Source: a virus
IMG/VR virus record: IMGVR_UViG_3300027782_000365
Span: 1 to 23,699 of that record
Direction: 5' to 3' (one strand)
Length of the DNA stretch: 23,699 nucleotides
Of this stretch, positions 392-16,797 are shown piece by piece (positions within the stretch are counted from its first letter, which is position 1; the number at the start of each line of letters is the position of its first letter). Both the position numbers and the translations under genes were made by a program. Under the pieces are notes generated by a model. It was given only the letters and a program-made list of their open reading frames with translations, was not told the DNA's origin and made no database searches.

Positions 392-404
392 CCTGATATA
401 ATTA
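392..404 (+). promoter_or_regulatory. Repeated phage promoter, copy 1
   Basis: Core CCTGATATAATTA with -10 TATAAT at 397-402 and an extended TG. The predicted start is near 409. It serves the gene at 433 through an ACGACGAAAGGA leader. Confidence 0.85.
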
Positions 405-432
405 TCCAGTACCAACGACGAAAGGACACCCA

Positions 433-891
433 ATGCAGACTACAGCAGTCGCAGGAAAAGCACTATATCTAGAGTTGCGCAGTGGCGATTACACTACTCA
501 ACTTATATTGACGCCTGAAGGTTTCACAACCTCAAACAAACTCGTCCCGTTGACGCTTTATCGTCGCAGGATCAGTAAGGTTCAACCTCGAAAGACTTGG
601 AAGCAGATATCTGCTAACCAATCTCCAGAGTGTGATTCAATGGGTAAGATCGCTCAATACTCAATTGAACAGGCAAACCTTGTGGCACGAGACAAAGTCT
701 CATTCACAGATTCCCTATTCAACCAACTAGTCAACAATGGCTGGGTTGTCTACAAGCAACCAATCGTGGTGGAGGTTACTCCAGAAGATCTCGATGACGT
801 GCGTCTAGGCAAGACACCATACAAGATTCTAGGTCGAATTACACGTTGCCGTAGGACCTTAGGGTTCGGCGAAGCGTTATTCGTTTCCTGA
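433..891 (+). CDS. Hypothetical protein (152 aa)
   Basis: The ATG follows the standard CGACGAAAGGACACCCA leader. The N-terminal half has alternating beta-like stretches (KALYLELRSGDYTTQLIL); the C-terminal part is basic and hydrophobic. The middle (residues about 50-100) is polar and helical. No family is recognised. It forms a monocistronic cassette between promoter copies 1 and 2, directly upstream of the MoxR/VWA pair. A specific function cannot be assigned. Confidence 0.8.
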   Translation: MQTTAVAGKALYLELRSGDYTTQLILTPEGFTTSNKLVPLTLYRRRISKVQPRKTWKQISANQSPECDSMGKIAQYSIEQANLVARDKVSFTDSLFNQLVNNGWVVYKQPIVVEVTPEDLDDVRLGKTPYKILGRITRCRRTLGFGEALFVS

Positions 892-904
892 CCTGATATA
901 ATTA
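892..904 (+). promoter_or_regulatory. Repeated phage promoter, copy 2
   Basis: Core CCTGATATAATTA, with -10 at 897-902 one base after the stop of the upstream gene. The predicted start is near 909. It drives the MoxR-like ATPase at 938. Confidence 0.85.
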
Positions 905-937
905 GACACGCAATACCCAACGACGAAAGGACACCCA

Positions 938-1921
938 ATGTCTACACTTACGATAGATTACGACAAGCTCCACCCAGGGCTTGCAGAGATCTTATCTAGT
1001 GCTGCGTCATCAAGCGTCAATGCTGAGATGAGTGCAAAGCTAGATGCTTTCATGCCGGCACCAGGTAAGGCTACTGCCCGAACTGCTGTCACAAAGAAAG
1101 TTGTTCCTATGATCTCACCAGATTCACTTACTGCCGATGAGAAGTATCTACGTCCAAATGGCGAGTGGTACTACACACGTCAGTGGGGCGAACACCACGA
1201 TGTAGCAGTACTACGCAAGGCGCGCGAGGACAAGCAATTCATTCTTCTCTATGGCGCTCCAGGTTGTGGTAAGACTGCACTTGTCCAAGCATCATTCGAT
1301 GACTTCGAAACAATTCTTGGTACAGGCGACACAGAGATCGCCGACTTCATTGGTGGATATATCCAAACTCCTTCAGGTGGATTCGAGTGGGTCGATGGTC
1401 CACTCCTAAAAGCTGCGGAGCGTGGTGTACCACTTCTAATTGATGAGGTAGGTCTCGTTGATCCAAAGGTTATGTCTGTTGTCTATTCATTCATGGATGG
1501 CACTGGCACCTATGCAGTTACTGCAAACCCAGAGCGTGGCATAGTAAAAGCTAAACCTGGGTTCTATGTAATCGCTGCAACCAACCCAAACGCTCCTGGA
1601 GTTCGACTTTCAGAAGCGCTTCTATCTCGATTTACTATTCATGCCGAGATGACAACAGACTGGAGTCTTGCTCGCAAGTTGGGCGCTCCTTCAACAATTG
1701 TCACTGCTGCTCAAAACCTAGCAAAGAAGCAGCAAACAGGAGAAGTCTCCTGGGCACCACAGATGCGTGAACTCCTTGGGTTCCGTGATCTTGTGAAAAG
1801 TTTCGGCACAAAGTTCGCAATCGCGAACTTACTCGCTGCAGCACCTGAACTCGACCGCCCCGTCGTAGCGGACGTGTTCACTAGGGTGTTCGGCGAAGAG
1901 TGCCGTCCAGCCAAGATCTAA
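938..1921 (+). CDS. MoxR/CobS-like AAA+ ATPase
   Basis: A 327-aa AAA+ ATPase. Visible motifs are Walker A GAPGCGKT (106-113), Walker B LLIDE (166-170), a sensor-1-like ATNPN (214-218) and an arginine-finger-like SRF (230-232). MoxR/CobS-type ATPases remodel or insert metal into partner proteins and are typically encoded next to a VWA-domain partner. The next gene is exactly such a partner, which supports a two-component ATPase-VWA machine. An N-terminal extension of about 80 residues precedes the ATPase core. It has its own promoter at 892 and is followed by a hairpin at 1939-1965. The phage substrate is unknown. A literal cobalt-chelatase role is unlikely because no cobalamin genes are present. 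Confidence 0.93.
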   Translation: MSTLTIDYDKLHPGLAEILSSAASSSVNAEMSAKLDAFMPAPGKATARTAVTKKVVPMISPDSLTADEKYLRPNGEWYYTRQWGEHHDVAVLRKAREDKQFILLYGAPGCGKTALVQASFDDFETILGTGDTEIADFIGGYIQTPSGGFEWVDGPLLKAAERGVPLLIDEVGLVDPKVMSVVYSFMDGTGTYAVTANPERGIVKAKPGFYVIAATNPNAPGVRLSEALLSRFTIHAEMTTDWSLARKLGAPSTIVTAAQNLAKKQQTGEVSWAPQMRELLGFRDLVKSFGTKFAIANLLAAAPELDRPVVADVFTRVFGEECRPAKI

Positions 1922-1938
1922 ACAATCCTGGCACCGGA

Positions 1939-1965
1939 AGGGTGGGCTCATTGGGTGCCCACCCT
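1939..1965 (+). terminator. Hairpin terminator after the MoxR-like gene
   Basis: A perfect 9-bp stem, AGGGTGGGC with GCCCACCCT, and a 9-nt loop. The tail is only weakly T-rich, as is common in actinobacterial systems. It lies between the ATPase stop and promoter copy 3. Confidence 0.7.
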
Positions 1966-1980
1966 CTCCATAACTTCTTA

Positions 1981-1993
1981 CCTGATATAATTA
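1981..1993 (+). promoter_or_regulatory. Repeated phage promoter, copy 3
   Basis: Core CCTGATATAATTA, -10 at 1986-1991, start near 1998. It drives the VWA gene at 2026, so the ATPase and VWA genes have separate promoters. Confidence 0.85.
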
Positions 1994-2025
1994 TCCTATA
2001 AGCACAAACGACGGAAGGATACCAA

Positions 2026-3813
2026 ATGGCACACATCAAGCATTCAGCAACCCGCGCTGAGGCAACTCCTATGGAGTGGCTAAAGGTTGGGTCACAGATA
2101 GGACGCCTTACCAATACGTTGGCCGGTCGCGACAACATCGTTGCATACGTTGGCCCTAACGCTGGCGATGGCGCTCCTGCAGCATTCAACCCATCACTTT
2201 CAGAAGTAGAAGTCAACTGCACCATCGCATTCGGCAAGGGCATCTTGCCAGAACAGATTGGTGACATCACAGAGCGTTCAGTTCAATATGACTGGCCACG
2301 TGCAACAGGCGCAATCCTTCACGAGGCAATGCATGCTCGCTTCTCACTATACAGTCTTCCAGAAGCAGCAAAGGTTCTTTCAAAGGAAGAGGTTCATGCA
2401 CTGATGATGCTTGAGGAATCTCGCATCGAGGCTCTAGGAGTTCAAGTACTTCCACACAATCGTGGGTTCCTCCGCGCTTGTGCTATCGACATCGTACTTG
2501 CAGATGCGTTCGAAGGTGTCAAAGGTCTTTCAACTACATCATCTGCAGCAACCCTTGCCGCACTTACACTTGCACGAATTGATGCAGACGTTCTTGAGCG
2601 ATCAGACGTTGAGTTCATCGCAGAAGAATTAGAGTTGTTCCTTGGCGAAGATCTACTAAAGGGTCTGCGTTCTATCTGGAATAGATTCCAAATGCATGAG
2701 ATGCACACAAACCCAGAACCTCTATACGAACTTGCTCGTGAATGGGCGCAGCTTGTGAAGGACGCTGCCACAGAACGTGGCGAGCCCGAGGATGGAACTC
2801 AGTCAGAAGAAGGACAAGAATTTATTAGAGTACTACTTGACGCTCTACAAGATGCAGCAGAGTCTGCATCGATTGGTGCGCAGGATGATCTAAATGATCA
2901 GCAGACTTCTGAAGAGTGGGCAGAGGAAGTGCAGGCAAAGTCTTCTGCAACAAAGGAACGCCACGACCACAAGAAGGAAGCACAGGAAGTCTTTATGAAA
3001 GGCACTGGCCCAAGCCCAGAGTCACGCACATCATCACGTTTACACGAAAGACGTATGCCTACAGGTCCAGAGCGAGCAGCAGCAGTAAAGGTTGCTCAAT
3101 TACTTGAGAAGGCAAAGTATCGCGAGCGTGATGCGCACGACATCGTCTCTCAACTTCCTCCTGGTAAGTTGCGCACCCGAGCTATCGTTCAAGGTGCGGC
3201 AGAAAAGTCTAAGGGCATCATGTCAAAGACAGAACCTTGGAAGCGCACTATTCGTAAGCACACTGATGACCCAACACTTACTGTAGGTGTGATGGTCGAC
3301 ATCTCAGGTTCTATGTCAAGTGCAATGCAACCTATGGCAGCCACTGCCTGGGTTATGTCTGAGGCCGCCAAGCGAGTTCAAGCACGTTGTGCAATGGTCT
3401 ACTATGGACAGGACGTGTTCCCTACACTAAAGCCAGGGCAAAGTCTTTCAGAGGTAACTGTTTACACTGCACCTGATGGAACTGAAAAGTTCAACAAAGC
3501 ATTCAAGGCACTCGATGGTTCTCTAAATCTTCTGCATGGCACTGGCGCTCGCCTACTTGTAGTTGTGAGTGATGGTTGCTATACAGGTGAAGAGATCGAG
3601 AAAGCTAAGCGTTGGATACGTCGTTGCCACGAAACTGGAGTAGCAGTTCTCTGGTTGCCGATGGGTCCAAGAGATTACTACGCAGAAGATATCATCAAAG
3701 GTACTGATGCGGTGATGCTTGCAGATGTAAATGATCCAGCGAAGGCTGCACTGGAAATCGGCAGAGCAGCAGCGAAAGCACTTGAGAAAGTGACTTCACG
3801 AACTGCAGCATAA
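2026..3813 (+). CDS. Metallopeptidase-like (DUF2201-type) plus VWA protein, CobT-like
   Basis: A 595-aa, two-part protein. The N-terminal part carries HEAMH (99-103) followed about 27 residues later by EESRIE (130-135), the arrangement of an HExxH zinc site with a downstream acidic ligand. This matches the putative metallopeptidase domain of DUF2201/CobT-like proteins. A charged, low-complexity linker (about 250-330) leads to a C-terminal von Willebrand A domain with the MIDAS motif DISGS (425-429) and a second conserved aspartate near 516 (VSDG). It sits directly after a MoxR-like ATPase, its expected partner. RBS GGAAGGA precedes the ATG. Proteolytic activity is inferred, because the motif could be structural. 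Confidence 0.92.
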   Translation: MAHIKHSATRAEATPMEWLKVGSQIGRLTNTLAGRDNIVAYVGPNAGDGAPAAFNPSLSEVEVNCTIAFGKGILPEQIGDITERSVQYDWPRATGAILHEAMHARFSLYSLPEAAKVLSKEEVHALMMLEESRIEALGVQVLPHNRGFLRACAIDIVLADAFEGVKGLSTTSSAATLAALTLARIDADVLERSDVEFIAEELELFLGEDLLKGLRSIWNRFQMHEMHTNPEPLYELAREWAQLVKDAATERGEPEDGTQSEEGQEFIRVLLDALQDAAESASIGAQDDLNDQQTSEEWAEEVQAKSSATKERHDHKKEAQEVFMKGTGPSPESRTSSRLHERRMPTGPERAAAVKVAQLLEKAKYRERDAHDIVSQLPPGKLRTRAIVQGAAEKSKGIMSKTEPWKRTIRKHTDDPTLTVGVMVDISGSMSSAMQPMAATAWVMSEAAKRVQARCAMVYYGQDVFPTLKPGQSLSEVTVYTAPDGTEKFNKAFKALDGSLNLLHGTGARLLVVVSDGCYTGEEIEKAKRWIRRCHETGVAVLWLPMGPRDYYAEDIIKGTDAVMLADVNDPAKAALEIGRAAAKALEKVTSRTAA

Positions 3814-4148: not shown

Positions 4149-4154
4149 TTCCTG

Positions 4155-4167
4155 CCTGATATAATTA
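4155..4167 (+). promoter_or_regulatory. Repeated phage promoter, copy 4
   Basis: Core CCTGATATAATTA, -10 at 4160-4165, start near 4172. It drives the operon beginning at 4243. Confidence 0.85.
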
Positions 4168-4175
4168 GACTAGTG

Positions 4176-4639: not shown

Positions 4640-5047
4640 ATGAATCTTGAAGGCAAGGACCTACTGTCCCTTAGCGCCTTAGGTCGGTTCGTTGATGAAC
4701 GGCTTGCAGGCTTCACCATAGAGCTGGATGAGATGACGGGCGAGGTTATCATACGCTCAGGCTTGACCATCGACAACGATGGACTATTCGTCCCGCTGGT
4801 AATACAGTCAGACGACCCTAGACTGGAAGCTCCCTTTGACCGTGATGAGACGGGGCAATTCGTAAAGCCTAAGGAGTACAGGACGTGGATTGCAAGCCCG
4901 AACGGAGACTGGTGGGATGGAACGCATGCCCCTGTGACAGTTCACGTTGTACACGAGTACGAGCTACCTGAAGACATCGAGGTCGAAGGCGACAAGTTTG
5001 AAGACGTGATTATGGAGTATGGAACTGAAGTAGAGATTCCTACCTGA
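4640..5047 (+). CDS. Hypothetical protein (135 aa)
   Basis: Start placed at ATG 4640, with GGTAGGG upstream; a GTG at 4631 overlapping the previous stop is the alternative. The protein is acidic with beta-rich stretches (FTIELDEMTGEVIIRSG, VTVHVVHEYELP). The stop TGA (5045-5047) is the TGA of the promoter core starting at 5043, so gene end and promoter overlap. No family is recognised. Confidence 0.8.
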   Translation: MNLEGKDLLSLSALGRFVDERLAGFTIELDEMTGEVIIRSGLTIDNDGLFVPLVIQSDDPRLEAPFDRDETGQFVKPKEYRTWIASPNGDWWDGTHAPVTVHVVHEYELPEDIEVEGDKFEDVIMEYGTEVEIPT

Positions 5048-5055
5048 TATAATTA
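5043..5055 (+). promoter_or_regulatory. Repeated phage promoter, copy 5
   Basis: Core CCTGATATAATTA, -10 at 5048-5053, start near 5060. It provides the stop codon of the upstream gene and drives the gene pair at 5085 and 5207. Confidence 0.85.
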
Positions 5056-5084
5056 CACCTAACACAACGACGAAAGGAAAACAG

Positions 5085-5434: not shown

Positions 5435-5447
5435 ATCAGGTTTCCTG

Positions 5448-5460
5448 CCTGATATAATTA
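5448..5460 (+). promoter_or_regulatory. Repeated phage promoter, copy 6
   Basis: Core CCTGATATAATTA, -10 at 5453-5458, start near 5465. It drives the gene at 5505. Confidence 0.85.
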
Positions 5461-5466
5461 TCCTAT

Positions 5467-5885: not shown

Positions 5886-6144
5886 ACAACACAGTGAGGA
5901 TTGAACGAATTCCCAGCCGACCATAATGGTTCTGCCACTGGCAGAGTACTCCAAAGAAGAGCAACTGGGATGAAGAGTTCCTTGGCGCCAATTGAGGCGT
6001 TGGGGTATGCGGCGCAGGTCGCAGTGCAAAGGGCATAGGTCTGGTCAACAGCCTACCGAACGTGAGCGGAGGAGTCGCTCTCCTCTTGTTCGGCCAGTGA
6101 GACGCAGTCCGGAGTATGCAGCTCGAGTTCAAAAGTGCACGAGG
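5886..6144 (+). ncRNA. Candidate structured non-coding RNA
   Basis: Gene-free, with stops in every forward frame, yet rich in nested pairing. TCTGCC/GGCAGA forms a hairpin at 5931-5945. CCGAAC/GTTCGG (6056-6061, 6088-6093) encloses GAGGAG/CTCCTC (6069-6074, 6080-6085), and is extended outward by CTGG (6041-6044) with CCAG (6094-6097). A long-range TACTCC (5947-5952) with GGAGTA (6111-6116) is possible. It ends in a strong terminator. No own promoter copy is visible, so it would be the 3' part of the 5505 transcript. It lacks hallmarks of tmRNA, RNase P, SRP RNA or group I introns. Confidence 0.5.
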
Positions 6145-6182
6145 TGGAGCTGGGTGTAAAAGCCCAGCTCCATTTCTTTCTT
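6145..6182 (+). terminator. Rho-independent terminator
   Basis: TGGAGCTGGG (6145-6154) pairs perfectly with CCCAGCTCCA (6163-6172) across an 8-nt loop, followed by TTTCTTTCTT. It closes the candidate RNA segment just before promoter copy 7. Confidence 0.85.
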
Positions 6183-6183
6183 A

Positions 6184-6196
6184 CCTGATATAATTA
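6184..6196 (+). promoter_or_regulatory. Repeated phage promoter, copy 7
   Basis: Core CCTGATATAATTA, -10 at 6189-6194, start near 6201. It drives the genes at 6227 and 6574. Confidence 0.85.
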
Positions 6197-6226
6197 TCCT
6201 AACGACAAAGCGATAAGGAGCACAAA

Positions 6227-7309: not shown

Positions 7310-7321
7310 TCCATTTCCGCA

Positions 7322-7334
7322 CCTGATATAATTA
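7322..7334 (+). promoter_or_regulatory. Repeated phage promoter, copy 8
   Basis: Core CCTGATATAATTA, -10 at 7327-7332, start near 7339. It drives the four-gene operon from 7361. Confidence 0.85.
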
Positions 7335-7360
7335 TCCTAACAACGACGAAGGGATACACA

Positions 7361-8105: not shown

Positions 8106-8348
8106 ATGGTTGAAGAAATAACAACGGTATTAGATCAGCCTCAGCTACTGGCAACGGACCGGTGTGACAGATGTGGCTCGCAGGCACAGGTACGTGCCAC
8201 AATGTTGACGGGCATGCTTTTATTCTGTGGTCATCACGCTCGTAGACACTCGTCAGCTCTATCGAATCAAGCAGCTACGATTTACGACCCCAACGATAGC
8301 ATGGTGTCATACGCATACTTGATGACGGGCGTCATAAAACCTACCTGA
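8106..8348 (+). CDS. DUF7455-like zinc ribbon (80 aa)
   Basis: The ATG at 8106 has GGAG eight bases upstream; ATG 8091, overlapping the previous gene, is an alternative. The motif CDRCGSQAQVRATM..LLFCGHHARRH, with ligands C20, C23, C41 and H44, is characteristic of the DUF7455 family, widespread in actinobacteria and their phages. The role is unknown, probably RNA, ribosome or RNA-polymerase binding. The stop TGA (8346-8348) lies in the next promoter. Confidence 0.85.
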   Translation: MVEEITTVLDQPQLLATDRCDRCGSQAQVRATMLTGMLLFCGHHARRHSSALSNQAATIYDPNDSMVSYAYLMTGVIKPT

Positions 8349-8356
8349 TATAATTG
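8344..8356 (+). promoter_or_regulatory. Repeated phage promoter, copy 9 (drives a leaderless gene)
   Basis: Core CCTGATATAATTG with -10 at 8349-8354. The next ATG (8361) is at the predicted transcript start, seven bases after the -10, with no RBS between. Confidence 0.85.
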
Positions 8357-8360
8357 CTCC

Positions 8361-8522
8361 ATGAAACGTAAACCGCTGTCTTTCTTATACGTTCGTGGAA
8401 CCGGAACAGGACCAACGAGCTTGAATCAGCATGCCCAAATCTTCTCGCATAAGGCAACAAAAAGAAATCGTGATAGGACGTCGATGAGACGTAAGGCGAT
8501 TGATGAGTCAAAAGACTCGTAA
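8361..8522 (+). CDS. Basic small protein (53 aa), apparently leaderless
   Basis: The ATG lies exactly where transcription from the promoter at 8344 should begin, and no SD is possible. It is very basic (KRKPLSF, KATKRNRDRTSMRRKA), suggesting nucleic-acid binding. Its 3' end contains a GAGTC-aaaa-GACTC hairpin (8505-8518). No family is recognised. Support is the uninterrupted frame between two promoters and the precise spacing. Confidence 0.62.
   Translation: MKRKPLSFLYVRGTGTGPTSLNQHAQIFSHKATKRNRDRTSMRRKAIDESKDS
8505..8518 (+). terminator. Short hairpin in the 3' end of the 8361 gene
   Basis: GAGTC-aaaa-GACTC, extendable by an A-T and a G-U pair, ends just before the stop codon. Weak terminator or stabiliser candidate. 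Confidence 0.4.
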
Positions 8523-8527
8523 ACCTA

Positions 8528-8540
8528 CCTGATATAATTA
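8528..8540 (+). promoter_or_regulatory. Repeated phage promoter, copy 10
   Basis: Core CCTGATATAATTA, -10 at 8533-8538, start near 8545. It drives the gene at 8566. Confidence 0.85.
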
Positions 8541-8565
8541 GCCTTACAATGACGAAAGGAACCCT

Positions 8566-8780: not shown

Positions 8781-8786
8781 TTCCTG

Positions 8787-8799
8787 CCTGATATAATTG
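8787..8799 (+). promoter_or_regulatory. Repeated phage promoter, copy 11
   Basis: Core CCTGATATAATTG, -10 at 8792-8797, start near 8804. It drives 8834. The leader lacks the usual ACGAAAGGA box and has GGAG (8825-8828) partly inside a CCAAT-gg-ATTGG hairpin. Confidence 0.82.
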
Positions 8800-8833
8800 A
8801 CTCTAACGAACCACCCAATGGATTGGAGTCCAA

Positions 8834-9118
8834 ATGCACAACGAACACGCAAAGGCTTACCAAAACTTCACTCTCCTCACTGCGGTTGCCGCAGGGAACG
8901 AGTGGACGATAGCAGAATCAAATAAGCTAAGAGATATGCGAAAAGCTGGAGTCCCAGTCTCTGAGGCTGCCATAATTCTTGGTCGCACGTTCTACGCGGT
9001 ACAAACGTACCTTGCGGCTAATGGGCTAACAAAAGCTCGCAAACATCCACAAACCACCAAAACAATTACTACCTGCTCTAACTGCAATTTGACTCACACC
9101 TACGCGTGTGAGTTTTAG
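8834..9118 (+). CDS. HTH/SANT-like DNA-binding protein with C-terminal Cys cluster (94 aa)
   Basis: Residues 23-60 (EWTIAESNKLRDMRKAG.PVSEAAIILGRTFYAVQTYL) form a Myb/SANT-like helix-turn-helix: W, a run of acidic and basic helix residues, then SEAAIILGR as the turn and recognition helix. The C-terminus carries CSNCNLTHTYACEF (C81, C84, H88, C92), a possible zinc site. Likely a small DNA-binding regulator. A terminator hairpin overlaps its last codons. Confidence 0.82.
   Translation: MHNEHAKAYQNFTLLTAVAAGNEWTIAESNKLRDMRKAGVPVSEAAIILGRTFYAVQTYLAANGLTKARKHPQTTKTITTCSNCNLTHTYACEF
9092..9118 (+). terminator. Terminator overlapping the 3' end of the 8834 gene
   Basis: ACTCACAC (9092-9099) pairs with GTGTGAGT (9106-9113), ending in TTTT around 9113-9116. 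It is encoded inside the last codons of the gene. Confidence 0.7.
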
Positions 9119-9139
9119 CAGAGAGGTTGAAAAAACCTT

Positions 9140-9152
9140 CCTGATATAATTA
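9140..9152 (+). promoter_or_regulatory. Repeated phage promoter, copy 12
   Basis: Core CCTGATATAATTA, -10 at 9145-9150, start near 9157. It drives 9205. Its leader (TAACAACTTAATA) is nearly repeated after promoter copy 17. Confidence 0.85.
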
Positions 9153-9204
9153 TCCTAACAACTTAATATCGAACCCAACGACGCAAGACGAAAGGAAAAC
9201 CCAA

Positions 9205-9486: not shown

Positions 9487-9488
9487 CG

Positions 9489-9523
9489 CCGGAGCTCTCG
9501 GATACTGGGAGCTCCGGTTTTTC
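9489..9523 (+). terminator. Strong rho-independent terminator
   Basis: CCGGAGCTC (9489-9497) pairs with GAGCTCCGG (9509-9517), followed by TTTTTC. It sits directly upstream of the compositionally different cassette starting at 9535. Confidence 0.9.
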
Positions 9524-9538
9524 TTGTCAAAAACTTGA

Positions 9539-9551
9539 CATGATATAATTA
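9539..9551 (+). promoter_or_regulatory. Repeated phage promoter, copy 13 (variant CATG)
   Basis: CATGATATAATTA, -10 at 9544-9549, preceded directly by TTGA. The string CTTGACATGATATAATTA recurs at copy 15. The TTGACA is too close to be a -35. It drives 9596. Confidence 0.82.
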
Positions 9552-9555
9552 ACAC

Positions 9556-9582
9556 ATAACGAAATACGTTATACGCATAACG
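9556..9582. promoter_or_regulatory. Three alternating half-sites, operator candidate
   Basis: ATAACG (9556-9561), CGTTAT (9567-9572) and ATAACG (9577-9582) lie within the leader, forming two overlapping inverted repeats. They could bind a repressor or form alternative short hairpins near the transcript start. Confidence 0.5.
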
Positions 9583-9595
9583 AATCGAGCCCACT

Positions 9596-9970
9596 ATGCA
9601 AAACGCAAACGATTTTATAAACGACAAAAACTGCTACGACTACCCACAACTTGCTTTCTCGCCAACATCGCGCGTCAATCTTAACGAGCCATTCTCCGTC
9701 GCCGTCGCTCTGCAATTTCTTGCCGAACGCTTCCCTGACACGCCGATTACACTCGTCGCTACAATCCGTGCCGGCTACAACGACTATCAAATCTTGAACA
9801 TCCCTGCCGAACATCTTGACCACTTCATCGGCCATTCTGGCTTCGACGAATTCGACAATACCGACGACAACTTCATCACAATCGAAAATAACGTCTACGC
9901 TCTTTACACTGCCTTCGCCGAACTTTCGCACAACCTCGATTCTCCAATCGACGTCGACACCTTCTACTAA
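9596..9970 (+). CDS. Hypothetical protein (124 aa) of an atypical-composition cassette
   Basis: The coding strand is C-rich and G-poor (positions 9841-9900 contain 18 C and 8 G). The leader AACGAATCGAGCCCA replaces the usual ACGAAAGGA box, so no strong SD is present. It is acidic in its second half (HLDHFIGHSGFDEFDNTDDN). No domain is recognised. First of three similar-looking genes, each with its own variant promoter. A long antisense frame over it is a by-product of the GAC-rich codons. Confidence 0.78.
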   Translation: MQNANDFINDKNCYDYPQLAFSPTSRVNLNEPFSVAVALQFLAERFPDTPITLVATIRAGYNDYQILNIPAEHLDHFIGHSGFDEFDNTDDNFITIENNVYALYTAFAELSHNLDSPIDVDTFY

Positions 9971-9980
9971 TCACTCGCAC

Positions 9981-10009
9981 TGCGCGGCCTCTGCTCTGCA
10001 TGCCGCGCA
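9981..10009 (+). terminator. Hairpin after the 9596 gene
   Basis: TGCGCGGC (9981-9988) pairs with GCCGCGCA (10002-10009). No T-tract follows. Confidence 0.6.
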
Positions 10010-10028
10010 CCTGCGCTTGAAAATCTTA

Positions 10029-10041
10029 TACGATATAATTA
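10029..10041 (+). promoter_or_regulatory. Repeated phage promoter, copy 14 (variant TACG)
   Basis: TACGATATAATTA, -10 at 10034-10039; the extended TG is replaced by CG. It drives 10074 through the shared AACGAATCGAGCCCA leader. Confidence 0.75.
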
Positions 10042-10073
10042 CCTTATAAACCCACTAACGAATCGAGCCCATC

Positions 10074-10346
10074 ATGACAACGACACAAACAAACACCCAC
10101 AATCGTCACTACGACTCATACATCGAAATCGAATTCACTACTGACTATGCCGACGACATCTGGACTTCTGACTTCGAATACTTTTCAATGCTCGTCGCCA
10201 AAACAAACTCAACTGGCATCACCTGCGAATCCTGCACTGCCGACTTCAATCTCGCTACGCCGTTCTACAAAATCGACAACTCTGTCGCATTCTGTCTTTC
10301 GCACATTCCTGCGCCGCTTCTCAACGAAATCACTCTGGCCTTATAA
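10074..10346 (+). CDS. Zinc-ribbon-like protein (90 aa) of the atypical cassette
   Basis: Ligand pattern CESC (51-54) and CLSH (74-77), a CxxC...CxxH ribbon spaced like the DUF7455-type protein at 8106. The C-terminus CLSHIPAPLLNEITLAL resembles CLSHQPQALRDFIAAL at the end of the protein at 10394, so the two are probably paralogues. Same C-rich coding strand and AACGAATCGAGCCCA leader as 9596. Function unknown. Confidence 0.8.
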   Translation: MTTTQTNTHNRHYDSYIEIEFTTDYADDIWTSDFEYFSMLVAKTNSTGITCESCTADFNLATPFYKIDNSVAFCLSHIPAPLLNEITLAL

Positions 10347-10353
10347 ATCTTGA

Positions 10354-10366
10354 CATGATATAATTA
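10354..10366 (+). promoter_or_regulatory. Repeated phage promoter, copy 15 (variant CATG)
   Basis: CATGATATAATTA, -10 at 10359-10364, with the same CTTGA prefix as copy 13. It starts 8 nt after the upstream stop and drives 10394. Confidence 0.82.
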
Positions 10367-10393
10367 GCTCACCACTACGAATTGGAGACTGAC

Positions 10394-10669
10394 ATGACAC
10401 AAATCAAAATCATCAAAAAAACTGACGACACGCTTACTCTCGAAATCGACCCACTTGTTTTCGACGACACTGACGCTGCCGACGACAACGAACTCTACAA
10501 CGTCGAAATCAACTTTGCCGACGACGACTTCGACTGCGAACACGACGACTGCGTCGAACCATCGCTGCCGTCCATCTCGTTCCTCGACATGTCTCCCGTC
10601 CAATCCATCATGACTAACTGCCTGTCGCACCAGCCTCAAGCTCTACGCGACTTCATCGCGGCCTTATAA
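10394..10669 (+). CDS. Very acidic protein (91 aa), diverged paralogue of 10074
   Basis: Start at ATG 10394, with GGAG (10384-10387) correctly spaced. It is extremely Asp-rich in the middle (FDDTDAADDNELYN, FADDDFDCEHDDC). The first Cys pair of its neighbour is altered (C48/C53) while CLSH (76-79) is kept, so the zinc site may be degraded. Same C-rich coding strand as 9596 and 10074. The charge would also suit a DNA mimic, which is speculation. Confidence 0.78.
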   Translation: MTQIKIIKKTDDTLTLEIDPLVFDDTDAADDNELYNVEINFADDDFDCEHDDCVEPSLPSISFLDMSPVQSIMTNCLSHQPQALRDFIAAL

Positions 10670-10676
10670 AATCCCG

Positions 10677-10689
10677 CCTGATATAATTA
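10677..10689 (+). promoter_or_regulatory. Repeated phage promoter, copy 16 (drives an RNA)
   Basis: Core CCTGATATAATTA, -10 at 10682-10687, start near 10694. No gene with an RBS follows for 200 nt; the transcript begins at the closing helix of a structured RNA. Confidence 0.85.
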
Positions 10690-10694
10690 TCCTA

Positions 10695-10777
10695 ATACGC
10701 GGGGACAGTCGCTGGCCAAACGAAAGACTCGACACCTGCAGGGGTCCGAAACAATACGACGCCCGCGTATCTATTTT
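10695..10777 (+). ncRNA. Promoter-driven small structured RNA (about 83 nt)
   Basis: The predicted transcript starts at or next to ATACGCGGG (10695-10703), which pairs perfectly with CCCGCGTAT (10762-10770), followed after two bases by TTTTTT. The 5' and 3' ends therefore close in a 9-bp helix that doubles as a terminator. Internal pairs include GGAC (10703-10706) with GTCC (10744-10747) and GTCG (10708-10711) with CGAC (10730-10733). There is no usable ORF or RBS. It has its own copy of the phage promoter. It is not a tRNA, because no anticodon or T-arm is found. A regulatory sRNA or RNA decoy is possible. Confidence 0.72.
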
Positions 10778-10800
10778 TTAGCGTGCGATGGTGGGCAGAA

Positions 10801-10837
10801 GGGAGAGGGTTGTGGGACCCTCTCTCTTCCTTCCTTT
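10801..10837 (+). terminator. Rho-independent terminator
   Basis: GGGAGAGGGT (10801-10810) pairs with ACCCTCTCTC (10817-10826), 10 pairs including one G-U, then a pyrimidine/T-rich tail. It insulates the sRNA unit from the next promoter. Confidence 0.8.
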
Positions 10838-10843
10838 TTCCTA

Positions 10844-10856
10844 TATGATATAATTA
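10844..10856 (+). promoter_or_regulatory. Repeated phage promoter, copy 17 (variant TATG)
   Basis: TATGATATAATTA, -10 at 10849-10854, start near 10861. It drives 10895. The leader shares TAACAACTTAATA with copy 12. Confidence 0.82.
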
Positions 10857-10894
10857 TCTTAACAACTTAATACAACCCACAAACAAAGGACAAA

Positions 10895-11374
10895 ATGATG
10901 AATCAACAAACACCATCAGAAGTATTCCACCAAGTATTCAAAGATCACCCAGGCAAACCTTTCTCAGAGATCTACTTCAACATCTTCGGACACCAAGATG
11001 ATGCGGACAAGGGTGGTCTCACAGATATCCTAGATAAGAACAAAGTTCAGTTGTGGCACCCTTCACTACCTCAAGACAAAGCAGTGATAGTGGCTATGTA
11101 TGAACATCAGGCATTCATCCTCAGATACCCAGATAACACCTACCACCACCTAGATATCGGTGGTTATTGGACAGATGAAACCACAGGTCAAGAGTACCTT
11201 TACCCAGAAGCAATGAATGATGATGAAGACCTATCCTTAGGTCTCCTCCGAGATATCCTAGATTCAGAAAGTGTATTCTGGGCATATGGTCTCATCACAG
11301 ATGAAGATACCCAGGACAGAATCCACAGCGGTGAGTTTAATGAATTGAAGGAAACCCTTCCAATAAATGAATAA
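10895..11374 (+). CDS. Hypothetical acidic protein (159 aa)
   Basis: Two adjacent ATGs (10895, 10898) follow AAAGGACAAA; either could initiate. The protein is acidic, with aromatic-rich beta-like segments (AVIVAMYEHQAFILRYPDNTYHH) and a Gly/Trp stretch (LDIGGYWTDETTGQEYLYP). No family is recognised. It is monocistronic, enclosed by its own promoter and an 11-bp hairpin. Confidence 0.82.
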   Translation: MMNQQTPSEVFHQVFKDHPGKPFSEIYFNIFGHQDDADKGGLTDILDKNKVQLWHPSLPQDKAVIVAMYEHQAFILRYPDNTYHHLDIGGYWTDETTGQEYLYPEAMNDDEDLSLGLLRDILDSESVFWAYGLITDEDTQDRIHSGEFNELKETLPINE

Positions 11375-11386
11375 GTAGAAGTTGCG

Positions 11387-11412
11387 GGTACCCTACTCAC
11401 AAGTAGGGTACC
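11387..11412 (+). terminator. Perfect 11-bp hairpin
   Basis: GGTACCCTACT, loop CACA, AGTAGGGTACC; an outer GTTG/CAAC pair may extend it. No T-tract, so it may act as an mRNA 3'-end stabiliser. Confidence 0.7.
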
Positions 11413-11425
11413 TTCAACATACCTA

Positions 11426-11438
11426 CCTGATATAATTA
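11426..11438 (+). promoter_or_regulatory. Repeated phage promoter, copy 18
   Basis: Core CCTGATATAATTA, -10 at 11431-11436, start near 11443. It drives the four-gene operon 11464-12779. Confidence 0.85.
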
Positions 11439-11463
11439 TCCCATAACGACGAAAGGACAAATC

Positions 11464-12315: not shown

Positions 12316-12779
12316 TGAGCGTGCGGTTAGCGTCTAAAGGTATTGCCGATCCAGCTACAGCTTTCGGTCAGTGCTTGATGCAGTCAAGCATGTATGCGGA
12401 GAAACACAAGCTAGGTCTGATTAGAGTCACAGGTCTTAGCTACACACGCAGAGAGCACTGGGCAGTCTATGAAGACATTGGTGAAGATGCTAAAGGCAGA
12501 TACTTTACTACTGAACCCGAGTGGGGAAAAGTAATTGATCTCACTGCGCGGCAGTTCGTTACCACTGTTCCAGCGAGATACGAAGATGATTGCCTTGCCT
12601 GGGTTGAGAGCGCCTGCGGTTGGCTCAATGACTCGCTGGTATATGAGATCTATCTGACTCATGATTCACAACTTGAGCCTGCGCATGTAGGTGAGCTACG
12701 CGTTGATGACAGCAACAACCACACAGGTGTGACGTATGCCGCGTTTGCTAAAGGCGAAGTCGAGACCTACCTGATATAA
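12315..12779 (+). CDS. Hypothetical protein (154 aa)
   Basis: It starts in a TAATG overlap with the upstream gene. A mixed alpha/beta protein (LGLIRVTGLSYTRREHWAVYEDIG). Its last codons CTG ATA TAA are part of the promoter core at 12770, so the promoter supplies the stop and fixes the C-terminus as YLI. No family is recognised. Confidence 0.8.
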   Translation: MSVRLASKGIADPATAFGQCLMQSSMYAEKHKLGLIRVTGLSYTRREHWAVYEDIGEDAKGRYFTTEPEWGKVIDLTARQFVTTVPARYEDDCLAWVESACGWLNDSLVYEIYLTHDSQLEPAHVGELRVDDSNNHTGVTYAAFAKGEVETYLI

Positions 12780-12782
12780 TTA
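12770..12782 (+). promoter_or_regulatory. Repeated phage promoter, copy 19
   Basis: Core CCTGATATAATTA, -10 at 12775-12780, start near 12787. It contains the stop TAA of the upstream gene and drives 12813. Confidence 0.85.
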
Positions 12783-12812
12783 GCCTAACGACAACCCCTA
12801 AGGAGGGACAAA

Positions 12813-13193: not shown

Positions 13194-13202
13194 ATACAAT
13201 TG
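13190..13202 (+). promoter_or_regulatory. Degenerate relative of the repeated promoter
   Basis: TAGGATACAATTG matches the core CCTGATATAATTG at 9 of 13 positions, with TACAAT at 13195-13200. Start near 13207, placing the GGAG and TTG at 13224 downstream. Confidence 0.45.
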
Positions 13203-13223
13203 ACTAAACCCTGGGAGACTCTA

Positions 13224-13814
13224 TTGACAACGCTTGCTGCTTTTCAAGGAAATGGCTGGGCAGTCATTGGCTGTGATTCACGTGCAAGCGACGAAGGTGG
13301 TCGCGCAATGGATCTTGCAACTCCAAAGGTTGTTGCGAATGGCGAGTACCTTATTGCAGTCTCCGGCGCATCACGCGGTGGAAACATCTCGCAGTTTGGT
13401 TGGACGCCACCAACGCCACCAAAGAACGTAACTCAAGATGGTCTCGATAAGTTTATGACTCGCTCCTTTATACCTTCTTTGCGTAGTGCATTTCAAGATG
13501 CTGGCTACGATGCAAAGGACGATGGTGATGCGGCGTTTCAAGACTCGAACTTACTTATAATTGTTCGCGGTGTTATCTATCCAATCTTTGAGGATTACTC
13601 GTGGGACAGAGAAGTACGTAACATTTATTACGGAGGTTCAGGTGGTGACGTAGCTCTTGGAGCTTTGGTTGCCCTTGGAATTGAAAAGCTAAAGGACAGC
13701 CCAGAGAAAGCTCTAAAGGTTATTGAAAAGTCAGTTGCGGTTGCCTGCGAGTGGGACGTCTACACTAAGGCTCCCATCATTACCCGAATCCAATACGGAA
13801 AGAAGCTAAAATGA
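13224..13814 (+). CDS. Proteasome beta/HslV-like Ntn hydrolase
   Basis: The N-terminus TTLAAFQGNGWAVIGCDSRAS aligns with proteasome beta/HslV. Counting the first Thr as Thr1, Asp falls at 17 and Arg at 19, followed by a lysine in ATPK (one residue beyond Lys33) and an SGA turn like Gly47. These are the nucleophile and charge-relay positions. Start set at TTG 13224, because GGAG is six bases upstream and removal of the initiator Met would expose Thr1 directly. A TTG at 13200 would add nine residues, with its RBS in a hairpin. Length 196 aa fits a single beta-type subunit. No dedicated unfoldase lies adjacent. The substrate is unknown. Confidence 0.85.
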   Translation: MTTLAAFQGNGWAVIGCDSRASDEGGRAMDLATPKVVANGEYLIAVSGASRGGNISQFGWTPPTPPKNVTQDGLDKFMTRSFIPSLRSAFQDAGYDAKDDGDAAFQDSNLLIIVRGVIYPIFEDYSWDREVRNIYYGGSGGDVALGALVALGIEKLKDSPEKALKVIEKSVAVACEWDVYTKAPIITRIQYGKKLK

Positions 13815-13960
13815 GCTACATTCATCTTTATAGTGCCGACGACACATGGATTGGGCAATTTCGTTCGGTTGACGCCGTTGAGACGTATCTTGATGACAAG
13901 GGCGAGGACATCAACGACTACAAGCTCGTGTTTGGCGCTTCTAAATATCCACCTGCCTGA
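13811..13960 (+). CDS. Small hypothetical protein (49 aa)
   Basis: It begins in an ATGA overlap with the Ntn-hydrolase gene, with GGAAAG upstream. The wording IHLYSADDTWIGQFRSVDAVETYLDD suggests a compact alpha/beta domain. The stop TGA (13958-13960) is inside the next promoter core. It resembles the 57-aa protein at 14312 in style: both pair a short strand with a charged helix. Confidence 0.7.
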   Translation: MSYIHLYSADDTWIGQFRSVDAVETYLDDKGEDINDYKLVFGASKYPPA

Positions 13961-13968
13961 TATAATTG
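13956..13968 (+). promoter_or_regulatory. Repeated phage promoter, copy 20
   Basis: Core CCTGATATAATTG, -10 at 13961-13966, start near 13973. It supplies the stop of 13811 and drives 13996, 14211 and 14312. Confidence 0.85.
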
Positions 13969-13995
13969 TCCTAAGAAACTACGAAAGGACAACGT

Positions 13996-14315: not shown

Positions 14316-14485
14316 GTACTCTTTACGAAATGGTGAACGTGTTCCTACCCAGCGGCGTCTGGGCAGGACAGTTCACTGATGAGGATGCCGCCAAGAGCTG
14401 GCTGAAGTCCCAGGGACTAAAACCGGACCAGTGTGAAATCTCAAGGCGCCGCCCCGAATTCAAGCGCCGTGGAGAACCTACCTGA
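14312..14485 (+). CDS. Small hypothetical protein (57 aa)
   Basis: GTG start with AGAGG at 14300-14304, overlapping the upstream stop. Contains VFLPSGVWAGQFTDEDAAKSWLKSQ and a very basic tail (SRRRPEFKRRG). The stop TGA (14483-14485) is inside the promoter core at 14481. The W..Q/E..D-helix pattern recalls the small proteins at 13811 and 14698. Confidence 0.65.
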   Translation: MSTLYEMVNVFLPSGVWAGQFTDEDAAKSWLKSQGLKPDQCEISRRRPEFKRRGEPT

Positions 14486-14493
14486 TATAATTA
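14481..14493 (+). promoter_or_regulatory. Repeated phage promoter, copy 21
   Basis: Core CCTGATATAATTA, -10 at 14486-14491, start near 14498. It provides the stop of 14312 and drives 14539 and 14698. Confidence 0.85.
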
Positions 14494-14496
14494 TCC

Positions 14497-14518
14497 TATC
14501 ACCAAATACCTGGTGGTA
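14497..14518 (+). promoter_or_regulatory. 5'-terminal leader hairpin
   Basis: TATCACCA (14497-14504) pairs with TGGTGGTA (14511-14518), 8 pairs with one G-U and a 6-nt loop. It begins at the predicted transcript start. Confidence 0.65.
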
Positions 14519-14538
14519 AACGACGAAAGGTACCCACA

Positions 14539-14697: not shown

Positions 14698-14874
14698 GTG
14701 AAGAACGTCCCAGGAAACCAAACTAAGTACTACTACACCCTGAGTAGCGGGGAAACCGTCTACCAGTACTGCCGTTCAGAAGCAGAGGCTGAATCTTGGG
14801 CCGAAGCTTACCGCCGAAGCAACTTCCTTGCGGACAAGGTGATCTCGCTGGTTACCTGGGGAACAAAGAGCTAA
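14698..14874 (+). CDS. Small hypothetical protein (58 aa)
   Basis: The GTG lies immediately after the upstream TAA with no clear SD, so translation probably depends on reinitiation. Contains KYYYTLSSGETVYQYCRSEAEAESWAEAY, a short hairpin plus helix. In layout it resembles the proteins at 13811 and 14312. No function is assigned. Confidence 0.65.
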   Translation: MKNVPGNQTKYYYTLSSGETVYQYCRSEAEAESWAEAYRRSNFLADKVISLVTWGTKS

Positions 14875-14887
14875 TCTTCCCAACCTA

Positions 14888-14900
14888 CCTGATATAATTA
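14888..14900 (+). promoter_or_regulatory. Repeated phage promoter, copy 22
   Basis: Core CCTGATATAATTA, -10 at 14893-14898, start near 14905. It drives 14934. Confidence 0.85.
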
Positions 14901-14933
14901 TTCCAACAACCCAACTACGAAAGGTAATACGAA

Positions 14934-15134
14934 ATGACACAATGTAAAGTTATCAACTGCGAAAACACAGAGCTAGTATACTCAGGAATTGATGCATTCA
15001 TGCTCGGTGGGATTCCAACTGAAACCTACTGCTACAACTGTGCAAACGCTTACAACCAAATCTCCCGCGACGTCGAAGCTGCTCGTGAAACAGTAGTTAC
15101 GTACCAGGGAGCATTCGGAGTAACAAGCGACTAG
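14934..15134 (+). CDS. Small zinc-ribbon protein (66 aa)
   Basis: The ATG follows CTACGAAAGGTAATACGAA. Ligands C4 and C9 with CYNC (33-36) form a ribbon, followed by a helix (QISRDVEAARETVVTYQG). Monocistronic. No specific family is recognised. Confidence 0.8.
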   Translation: MTQCKVINCENTELVYSGIDAFMLGGIPTETYCYNCANAYNQISRDVEAARETVVTYQGAFGVTSD

Positions 15135-15143
15135 TCGCACCTA

Positions 15144-15156
15144 CCTGATATAATTA
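15144..15156 (+). promoter_or_regulatory. Repeated phage promoter, copy 23
   Basis: Core CCTGATATAATTA, -10 at 15149-15154, start near 15161. It drives the operon from 15201. Confidence 0.85.
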
Positions 15157-15163
15157 TCCCAAC

Positions 15164-15178
15164 GCCGGAACCTCCGGC
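15164..15178 (+). promoter_or_regulatory. 5' leader hairpin
   Basis: GCCGGA (15164-15169), loop ACC, TCCGGC (15173-15178): a perfect 6-bp stem beginning 3 nt from the predicted transcript start. Confidence 0.65.
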
Positions 15179-15200
15179 AAATGACGAAAGGACTTCCCAA

Positions 15201-15434
15201 ATGAAAATAAACAAGTTTCGTGGATACCGTTACCGCCGCTATGGCGCAGCACTAATCGTAGCAGCAGTTGCCTGGTTCCCATACGCAGCTCACACATTTT
15301 TCATCTTCCCTAGTTTCCTCGCACTTGCGGCAGCTATAGTTCTCGTACTTGGTGGATGTATTCCACTTCTAGTATTTGCGCTTCACTGCTTCAACGTTGC
15401 GGACGATGAGTTCAACCTAACGAAAGGAAAGTAA
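15201..15434 (+). CDS. Two-helix membrane protein (77 aa)
   Basis: The ATG follows TGACGAAAGGACTTCCCAA. A basic N-terminus (KINKFRGYRYRRYG) is followed by two hydrophobic helices (AALIVAAVAWFPYAAHTFF and ALAAAIVLVLGGCIPLLVFA). The size is holin-like, but location argues against a simple assignment. The next gene's RBS (AACGAAAGGA) lies within its last codons. Confidence 0.78.
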   Translation: MKINKFRGYRYRRYGAALIVAAVAWFPYAAHTFFIFPSFLALAAAIVLVLGGCIPLLVFALHCFNVADDEFNLTKGK

Positions 15435-15635
15435 ATGGAGTTTACAATTGAAAGCTGGGTGGTGTCACTGTACATCACCAACACAATCGAGCTGTACCTT
15501 CACGTGTGGGTACCTGCAGCTATCGCGGTTCTAGCTTTAGCTCGCAAGTTCTACAAGTACAAGAAGGATGAAGTAAAGATCCAACCTCTACTTGGCGTAG
15601 GCTACAAGCCAGGCAGCCGAAAGCTAGACATCTAA
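15435..15635 (+). CDS. Small membrane protein (66 aa)
   Basis: The ATG directly follows the previous TAA, with GAAAGGAAAG upstream. One hydrophobic helix (LYLHVWVPAAIAVLALA) is followed by a basic, Lys-rich cytoplasmic tail. It is probably co-expressed with 15201, and the two may form a membrane pair. No family is recognised. Confidence 0.75.
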   Translation: MEFTIESWVVSLYITNTIELYLHVWVPAAIAVLALARKFYKYKKDEVKIQPLLGVGYKPGSRKLDI

Positions 15636-15636
15636 C

Positions 15637-15900
15637 TTGAAGTTCATAGCAAAGGACCAGAGGGTTCCTCGTCGTAGAGACGACAATACCTTTGAGATCT
15701 GTATCTCCTGCGGGCACTACATCTACAATCCGCAGGAGATTCAGTACGTGCCGCTAGGTTCAAAGGCTAGAGGCAACTTTAAGATGTCTGCCCATCACGT
15801 CGACCACATCGACTGTCAGGTATCCATCAACATTGGGCTACCTTCCAGCCAGTTCGGCCCAAGGCGACAAAGAGTTTTGGATAGCGGTTTACAAGATTAG
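15637..15900 (+). CDS. Zinc-finger protein (87 aa)
   Basis: TTG start at 15637, one base after the upstream stop; no good SD or alternative ATG. CISC (22-25) and HIDC (57-60) give a CxxC...HxxC site. A basic N-terminus (KDQRVPRRRDD) suggests nucleic-acid contact. It may be an HNH-like zinc scaffold, but no HNH catalytic triad is apparent. Confidence 0.7.
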   Translation: MKFIAKDQRVPRRRDDNTFEICISCGHYIYNPQEIQYVPLGSKARGNFKMSAHHVDHIDCQVSINIGLPSSQFGPRRQRVLDSGLQD

Positions 15901-15938
15901 GTAGACAGGATAAAGTTCTACCACTACAGGAGGATGCA

Positions 15939-16253
15939 ATGACGCGAGGTACCATTCAAAAAGATCAGGTATACGTTTACGGAACATGCGAACGATGCCA
16001 GGAAACTAACGCACTTGTGTATGAGTGTGGTGAGCAGCTGCTATGCGCTGAGCACTCACGTCAATACGCACATTCACATCCATTGAAACCTTATTGCGAT
16101 AGGTGCATGAAACAAGACAAGGTGGTCCGCGACCCATCGCATCGACGCAACGAGTATCTCTGCATGAGCTGTCACGCTGATGATGGATTCCTCATCCGGG
16201 ATTCCGTTACCGGTCGTGCCATCCTTGAGACTCTCAAGCTGGAAGAAAAATAG
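15939..16253 (+). CDS. Double zinc-ribbon protein (104 aa)
   Basis: The ATG follows a strong CAGGAGGATGCA SD. Two ribbons: CERC (17-20) with CAEH (36-39), then CDRC (53-56) with CMSCH (75-79). The first uses the CxxC...CxxH scheme seen at 8106 and 10074, so a common ancestry is plausible. The C-terminal tail is helical. Function unknown. Confidence 0.83.
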   Translation: MTRGTIQKDQVYVYGTCERCQETNALVYECGEQLLCAEHSRQYAHSHPLKPYCDRCMKQDKVVRDPSHRRNEYLCMSCHADDGFLIRDSVTGRAILETLKLEEK

Positions 16254-16255
16254 AT

Positions 16256-16555
16256 TTGGGTAGCTCGCAGCTGCAGTTACTCAAGGAGGCCGAGGAACTT
16301 CATAGGAAGTCCCGAGCCTGGTTAGAGGCAGAACCTCCAGCCGAACTAAAAGAAACACCGACGAAAGGTACTGAAATGACAGAAGCAACGCCGCAAGCGG
16401 CAGCTCAGCTTTACAGCCAAGGCAAGCCGGTAGTTGAGGTAGCCAAGGAGCTAGGAGTTACCTATGGTAAAGCCCGCAAGCTCATCGACGCATCAGGAAC
16501 TACCATTCGGGATGGCTCCAGCCGTCTCAAGGGCCGAACACGCCCAGTCAAGTAG
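16256..16555 (+). CDS. HTH protein (99 aa, or 59 aa from an internal start)
   Basis: The C-terminal 59 residues contain a clear helix-turn-helix (LYSQGKPVVEVAKELGVTYGKARKLI) and a basic tail, resembling small HTH proteins of actinobacteriophages. TTG 16256 gives the long form with a weak SD. ATG 16376 sits behind the phage's standard CGACGAAAGG box and is probably the main start. The 40-residue upstream part still looks protein-like, so both forms may exist. Confidence 0.75.
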   Translation: MGSSQLQLLKEAEELHRKSRAWLEAEPPAELKETPTKGTEMTEATPQAAAQLYSQGKPVVEVAKELGVTYGKARKLIDASGTTIRDGSSRLKGRTRPVK

Positions 16556-16560
16556 GAATC

Positions 16561-16731
16561 ATGCCAAACTGGATTACTAGACTTCAGGAGCTGGTCTGGC
16601 CTGCGGTACTGGCCTTGGTATTTGCCGTGCTTTCCGTGGGAGTAGCCCTCATTTCCCCTGAGAGCCTCTCTAAGGTGGTTTCCTTGGGTATGGCAGGCAT
16701 AACTATGGCACTGTTGGCCCAAAGGGCTTAG
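16561..16731 (+). CDS. Two-helix membrane protein (56 aa)
   Basis: The ATG follows GTAGGAATC. Two hydrophobic segments (VLALVFAVLSVGVALI and GMAGITMALLAQRA) are separated by a short SPESLSK turn. The size and topology are holin-like, but it sits about 1.6 kb upstream of the lysis genes. No family is assigned. Confidence 0.72.
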   Translation: MPNWITRLQELVWPAVLALVFAVLSVGVALISPESLSKVVSLGMAGITMALLAQRA

Positions 16732-16737
16732 CCTCTC

Positions 16738-16797
16738 GCTCCTTTCCTGGACCCACCTGATATAATTAACCTATCAAGAGGACCCCAGGAAAGGAGC
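16738..16797 (+). promoter_or_regulatory. RBS-sequestering inverted repeat straddling a promoter
   Basis: GCTCCTTTCCTGG (16738-16750) is perfectly complementary to CCAGGAAAGGAGC (16785-16797), which contains the SD of the gene at 16803. The promoter lies between the arms, so its own transcript (starting near 16773) lacks the left arm and has a free RBS. Read-through RNA from upstream would fold and hide it. Confidence 0.65.
16756..16768 (+). promoter_or_regulatory. Repeated phage promoter, copy 24 (last)
   Basis: Core CCTGATATAATTA, -10 at 16761-16766, start near 16773. It drives 16803, 16967 and 17557. Confidence 0.85.

Follow-up and report, generated by a model that had tools for sequence, protein, structure and literature searches.

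A predicted extended -10 promoter repeated 24 times in one arm of a probable actinobacterial phage genome

The DNA described here is a linear IMG/VR fragment of 23,699 nucleotides (virus record IMGVR_UViG_3300027782_000365), which we refer to, at its full length, as 'the window'. Between positions 392 and 16768, a short element, CCTGATATAATTA, occurs 24 times, always on the plus strand. A motif search of the window found the minus strand and the lysis and packaging region free of copies. Every copy lies ahead of an open reading frame (ORF) with a plausible start or, for the copy at 10677, ahead of a unit that resembles a non-coding RNA. The 24 copies are predicted to be promoters that lack a -35 element. 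A first-pass annotation of this DNA had given the same 24 coordinates, all of them correct and all on the plus strand, and had placed each copy before a gene or small RNA, as we also find.

The repeated element and its place in the genome

The features are listed below. Each copy is given at its conserved extent, approximately -21 to +1, as established by motif search and column analysis, with the start of the core in brackets. G001 is a 131.5-kb contig from a near-identical relative, the terminase of which is 99.6% identical to that of the window.

388–409, +, promoter copy 1 (392), ahead of ORF 433–891
888–909, +, promoter copy 2 (892), ahead of a MoxR-type AAA ATPase gene, 938–1921
1977–1998, +, promoter copy 3 (1981), strong stem-loop upstream, VWA protein gene 2026–3813 downstream
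4151–4172, +, promoter copy 4 (4155), strong hairpin in leader, ahead of ORF 4243
5039–5060, +, promoter copy 5 (5043), ahead of ORF 5085
5444–5465, +, promoter copy 6 (5448), leader hairpin, ahead of ORF 5481/5505
6180–6201, +, promoter copy 7 (6184), terminator-like site 6141–6176 immediately upstream, ORF 6227 downstream
7318–7339, +, promoter copy 8 (7322), strong stem-loop upstream
8340–8361, +, promoter copy 9 (8344), predicted +1 is the A of ATG 8361, leaderless ORF 8361–8522
8524–8545, +, promoter copy 10 (8528); segment from 8344 to 8528 missing from G001, joint on motif
8783–8804, +, promoter copy 11 (8787)
9136–9157, +, promoter copy 12 (9140); segment from 8787 to 9140 missing from G001
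9535–9556, +, promoter copy 13 (9539), CATG variant, terminator-like site 9488–9518 upstream
10025–10046, +, promoter copy 14 (10029), TACG variant without TG
10350–10371, +, promoter copy 15 (10354), CATG variant
10673–10694, +, promoter copy 16 (10677), ahead of an ORF-less RNA-like unit, about 10694–10830; segment from 9539 to 10677 missing from G001
10840–10861, +, promoter copy 17 (10844), TATG variant, terminator-like site 10798–10829 upstream
11422–11443, +, promoter copy 18 (11426); segment from 10844 to 11426 missing from G001
12766–12787, +, promoter copy 19 (12770)
13952–13973, +, promoter copy 20 (13956)
14477–14498, +, promoter copy 21 (14481), leader hairpin
14884–14905, +, promoter copy 22 (14888)
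15140–15161, +, promoter copy 23 (15144), leader hairpin GCCGGAACCTCCGGC
16752–16773, +, promoter copy 24 (16756), in the loop of an inverted repeat, the right arm of which contains a ribosome-binding site
16738–16798, +, inverted repeat GCTCCTTTCCTGG / CCAGGAAAGGAGC enclosing promoter copy 24
19993–20008, +, separate extended -10 promoter TGTTATAAT, outside the array, leaderless, for helix-turn-helix (HTH) gene 20008–20598

Seventeen copies are exact and three read CCTGATATAATTG; the remaining four are variants that begin with CATG (9539 and 10354), TACG (10029) or TATG (10844). When up to three mismatches are allowed, the window contains 26 matches versus 4.9 ± 2.4 in dinucleotide shuffles. 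A 9-mer within the core, GATATAATT, is identical in all 24 copies by column analysis; it occurs 24 times on the plus strand and never on the minus, where a first-order Markov estimate predicts 0.06 per strand, and its count agrees with the motif search that none lies in the lysis and packaging region, as claimed earlier. Conservation extends into the flanks (CCTA four bases upstream of the core and TCCTAac downstream). The first-pass annotation described every copy as a perfect extended -10 element. This is true of the 23 copies that contain TGATATAAT, and hence the TG of the extended -10 (TGnTATAAT), and untrue of the copy at 10029, which reads CGATATAAT and lacks the TG. Nothing informative is found at -35: beyond 12 bases upstream of the core, no column carries more than 0.45 bit. 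The best match to TTGACA at legal spacing averages 2.33 of 6 bases versus 2.87 ± 0.17 at random positions, and no hidden -35 element was found. Column analysis and TTGACA matching thus concur with the earlier statement that the flanks are conserved and that no -35 is shared.

The window's terminase shares 78% identity with its counterpart in Actinomycetia phage DSL-LC01, a 129-kb genome assembled from metagenomic data of Dishui Lake, and ∼60% with those of Microbacterium phages such as Big4 and Pumpernickel. On account of these relatives, and of the WhiB genes in the large records, the virus probably belongs to an actinobacterial phage family, with lake Actinobacteria as its likely hosts. WhiB-family genes number three each in G001, G002, G003 and DSL-LC01; the window has none. 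A megablast of the full window against phage records gave no match, and a host search through GTDB genomes found no relative of the window terminase. The sequence CCTACCTGATATAATT was tried as a host clue in the same genomes and rejected; its 30 matches are single, scattered among unrelated organisms, and read as chance.

The first bases of G001 recur at 131395, so this contig is probably a complete circular unit of 131.4 kb. After reverse-complementation, 19 of its 20 plus-strand copies (up to two mismatches) lie in a single 15-kb block, 26955–41881; outside these 19 there are a plus-strand copy at 95707 and a further TGATATAAT site at 33731, and one one-mismatch copy occurs on the opposite strand, at 21157. 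The genes of G001 are placed as follows: endolysin at ∼26.0–26.7 kb, MoxR at 28.8, terminase at 45.8, portal at 48.5, capsid at 66 and DNA polymerase at 84. Since these 19 copies lie between the endolysin gene and the peptidoglycan-binding and terminase genes, the array marks one arm of the genome, from endolysin to packaging genes. The earlier claim that the motif defines the whole accessory arm therefore stands up to a search of a complete relative. G001 has extra copies at 27634 and 26955, upstream of the ortholog of the copy at 392, and so the array probably begins before the start of the window. The 49-kb stretches read of the isolates Pumpernickel, A3Wally and GodonK contain no TATAAT array, and genes are tightly packed there. 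The arm also encodes a Peptidase HslV-family (proteasome-like) protein (window 13200–13814, PHROG 1040), the G001 and DSL-LC01 versions of which are 42% identical.

The copies as predicted promoters

Sigma-70-type initiation is expected to start 7 bases after the -10 element. Among 63 related contigs, each with eight sites or more, A predominates at position 7 after TATAAT in 58; a pyrimidine occupies position 5 in 57 and position 6 in 61, and positions 1–4 vary by lineage. As far as sequence can tell, then, the copies have the purine start expected 6–8 bases after the -10 of a sigma-70/SigA promoter. In the window, the predicted +1 of the copy at 8344 coincides with the ATG at 8361, and TGTTATAAT, ahead of 20008, is spaced in the same leaderless way. 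Nine of the 24 copies have a strong stem-loop (z below about -3.5) just upstream, often resembling a terminator, and a few further copies carry a leader hairpin. Terminator-like sites 6141–6176, 9488–9518 and 10798–10829 end right before copies. This pyrimidine-A signature, the two leaderless ATGs, and the composites of stem-loop and promoter provide good comparative support for the promoter reading, which had been proposed earlier; the copies look like -35-less extended -10 promoters. The HTH protein encoded at 20008–20598, just beyond the second leaderless promoter, has an N-terminal stretch resembling sigma-70 region 4, and its gene lies directly upstream of the terminase gene.

We infer that transcription starts at the copies and that they are read by the host sigma factor. 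The host RNA polymerase, carrying its housekeeping sigma factor, would need no -35 element here, recognizing TGnTATAAT together with conserved spacer bases to about -21, and would start at the A 7 bases past TATAAT. Each copy would then start a short unit, in which a leader is followed by a small RNA or by one or a few small genes, and often by a terminator. These units may be early genes. Column analysis of the 24 copies reveals no activator box centered near -30 of the kind found in T4 middle (MotA/AsiA) promoters (≤0.45 bit), and no T7-type RNA polymerase (PF00940) was matched in G001, G002 or DSL-LC01, although the control genomes gave no match either.

Two units have additional RNA features. 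The inverted repeat at 16738–16798 encloses the promoter at 16756 (fold z -5.5), and in this arrangement read-through RNA from upstream would pair the ribosome-binding site, whereas RNA begun at 16756 would leave it free. The hairpin is kept in two relatives (L014 and L090), and a third (L193) has the same arrangement with a different paired sequence. The ORF-less unit at 10694–10830, headed by a motif copy, is closed by a stem, ATACGCGGG/CCCGCGTAT, and has a T-run. Two units in G001 resemble it, a related one at 36469 and another of similar appearance at 27634. The latter folds better than shuffles (z -3.6); the unit in the window does not (z -0.8), and an Rfam search with it found no family above the gathering score.

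Turnover of the sequence and gain and loss of gene cassettes

DSL-LC01 has no CCTGATATAATTA. Instead, it has ∼18 copies of GATTCTAAAGATGTTATAATTGAATC in the same arm, of the form GATTCTAAAG(A/T)TGTTATAATNGAATCA. An inverted repeat, GATTC...GAATC, lies on either side of this element, and DSL-LC01 was called lysogenic (PMC10611076), two points that favor viewing the copies mainly as phage-repressor sites that overlap promoters, as in the immunity systems of temperate phages. We consider this very improbable: neither the window nor most lineages show a consistent dyad, the copies strictly follow the direction of transcription and lie a short way upstream of gene starts, and no repressor was identified.

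Other relatives have ACCTGATATAATAGTACTA, ACATGATATAATTAACTTA, CCTGATATAATTGACCCAA and more; classes among the MoxR-bearing relatives include CCTGATATAAT, CTAAAGnnnTATAAT, CCAGAGTTTATATAAT and CTAGGGATTGTATAAT, and in other lineages, several of them outgroups, TTGACA promoters or different repeats are found. The class labels were assigned mechanically, and a TTGACA count of about 5 is at background level. On a MoxR tree the motif classes are clustered, with 13 changes versus 31 in shuffles. In 82% of 136 genome pairs, the site upstream of MoxR is, on average, closer to other sites in its own genome than to its ortholog. Genomes also differ in the first base after TATAAT (chi2 385, 68 degrees of freedom), which is near fixed in some and mixed in others; this fits gradual homogenization better than a strict reader that switched abruptly. 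These comparisons support the view that the promoter cassettes evolve in concert within lineages. Other inter-gene repeats, GTATCCACTTTTTTAC, TATTTTTTAGGGGAAC and GGGTAAAAAT, occur in the relatives L271/L274, L272/L273 and L254/L256, respectively.

Turnover of this kind could also arise if the promoters were phage-directed, a phage-encoded protein on the host polymerase, or on sigma region 4, reading the block at -22 to -17 and replacing the -35 contact. Each lineage's block would then co-evolve with its own factor, and would have been replaced genome-wide several times. We regard this as unlikely. Immediately ahead of the -10 lies a block that is conserved but lineage-specific (CCTACC, CTAAAG, CCAGAG or AGGGA), some CTAAAG lineages have lost the TG of the extended -10, several outgroup lineages have TTGACA promoters, and each large record has its three WhiB-family genes, all of which would suit such a factor. 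WhiB proteins bind sigma in known cases. No candidate, however, tracks motif class, and many genomes have mixed variants, unlike a strict one-factor code. No Sigma70 region 2 was detected in the window or in DSL-LC01, which also counts against a phage factor. Strict recognition by such a factor, as first proposed, is a conjecture, and the mixed variants speak against a very strict reading of the discriminator. The sigma-4-like HTH protein was considered as specificity factor and rejected, since it occurs in several motif classes and is undetected in DSL-LC01. Were a phage factor at work, the CCTACC, CTAAAG, CCAGAG and AGGGA lineages, together with those with TTGACA, would amount to a series provided by nature, in which a single phage family holds several promoter codes, each co-evolved with its factor.

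In alignments of the window with G001, a block ends just past a motif copy and the alignment picks up again at the following copy. The window segments missing from G001 (8344–8528, 8787–9140, 9539–10677 and 10844–11426) leave one motif copy at each joint. We surveyed insertions and deletions (indels) in 69 contigs with TGATATAAT arrays, scoring as motif-to-motif those in which both ends and the joint fell within 30 bp of a motif. Of 105 clean indels, 26 were of this kind, with a median shared overlap of 17 bp; random placement gave a mean of 0.5 and a maximum of 3 in 500 trials. A further 25 indels have the left joint in a promoter or leader and the right joint farther downstream.

Since the same ∼20-bp sequence heads every unit, we infer homologous recombination between copies as the process behind the joints. 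Recombination of this kind would add, delete and swap whole units and keep the copies alike within a genome; sequence changes would spread through the array, and each lineage would acquire its own version. The motif-to-motif indels and the lineage-specific consensus sequences support the concerted evolution, or recombination between copies, suggested earlier.

Several points weigh against this account. The start sites are predicted from sequence. The random-breakpoint null ignores a possible preference of indels for gene boundaries; because the motif is present at a large part of these boundaries, indels merely falling between genes would also give an excess, and the strength of the result therefore rests on the exact positions of the joints. 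The tight placement of the joints, like the ∼17 bp of overlap shared there, favors the motif itself; even so, another process could leave the same joint, and the indel events, drawn from different contig pairs with 13 query contigs, are not fully independent. Joints on the motif would also be expected if the copies were neutral, spread with cassettes through recombination and serving only as homology blocks. This is scarcely credible, given that the copies lie at unit heads on one strand, and that the -10 and the pyrimidine-A signature persist from lineage to lineage as adjacent bases change, which suggests selection for transcription. Overall, the best explanation, and in our judgment a likely one, is that the copies are -35-less promoters, read by host sigma, heading units that are exchanged by recombination between copies.

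Comparison with known systems

A literature search found no description of this array, although most subscription journals were outside its coverage and an earlier description is possible; the words 'promoter' and 'repeat' are absent from the text of the DSL-LC01 paper (PMC10611076). The idea that phage promoters serve as joints at which gene cassettes are exchanged comes from T4-type phages; the array extends it to a large family that probably infects actinobacteria. Dozens of natural lineages in which the whole promoter set has changed together offer a rare chance to tell concerted evolution from co-evolution with a recognition factor, and the copies are, by prediction, ready-made -35-independent start signals for probing actinobacterial RNA polymerase.

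Among actinobacteriophages, the SAS/ESAS elements of cluster K mycobacteriophages, GGGATAGGAGCCC, occur near start codons without a -10 hexamer (PMC12699233). Like them, the present element is short and repeated before many genes outside the structural module, but it is a different sequence. Cluster O mycobacteriophages have more than 30 copies of a 17-bp repeat, and some indels are attributed to recombination between these copies (PMC4351075). Those repeats are palindromic, unoriented, about one third inside genes, and without a promoter hexamer, whereas the present copies, 24 on the plus strand and none on the minus, have no full dyad.

The closer parallels lie elsewhere. In the haloarchaeal tailed virus HGTV-1, a TATA-box-like motif with an inverted repeat precedes most ORFs of one genome arm, and its authors likened the motif to the PeSLs (promoter early stem-loops) of T4-type phages (PMC3950731); unlike the present array, both virus and host are archaeal. 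As far as the accounts of PeSLs in PMC4503421 and PMC3950731 go (Arbiol et al. 2010; Comeau et al. 2014), these elements share with the array dense, near-identical promoter copies, combined in the array at some copies with a stem-loop or terminator, and an intensely shuffled, variable stretch of small genes, with gene modules gained and lost at the elements, as seen here in the comparison with G001 and in the indel survey. On the same accounts, the array differs in having no -35, a stem-loop at only part of the copies, and sequence turnover between lineages. It also belongs to an unrelated phage family: the terminase, gene order and relatives are those of the DSL-LC01/Microbacterium/Gordonia group, not of T4-like phages, and we therefore do not class it as PeSL. 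By analogy, and within the limits of those accounts, the promoter cassettes may nonetheless work like the T4 PeSLs, which, together with the HGTV-1 motif, appear to be the nearest known cases.

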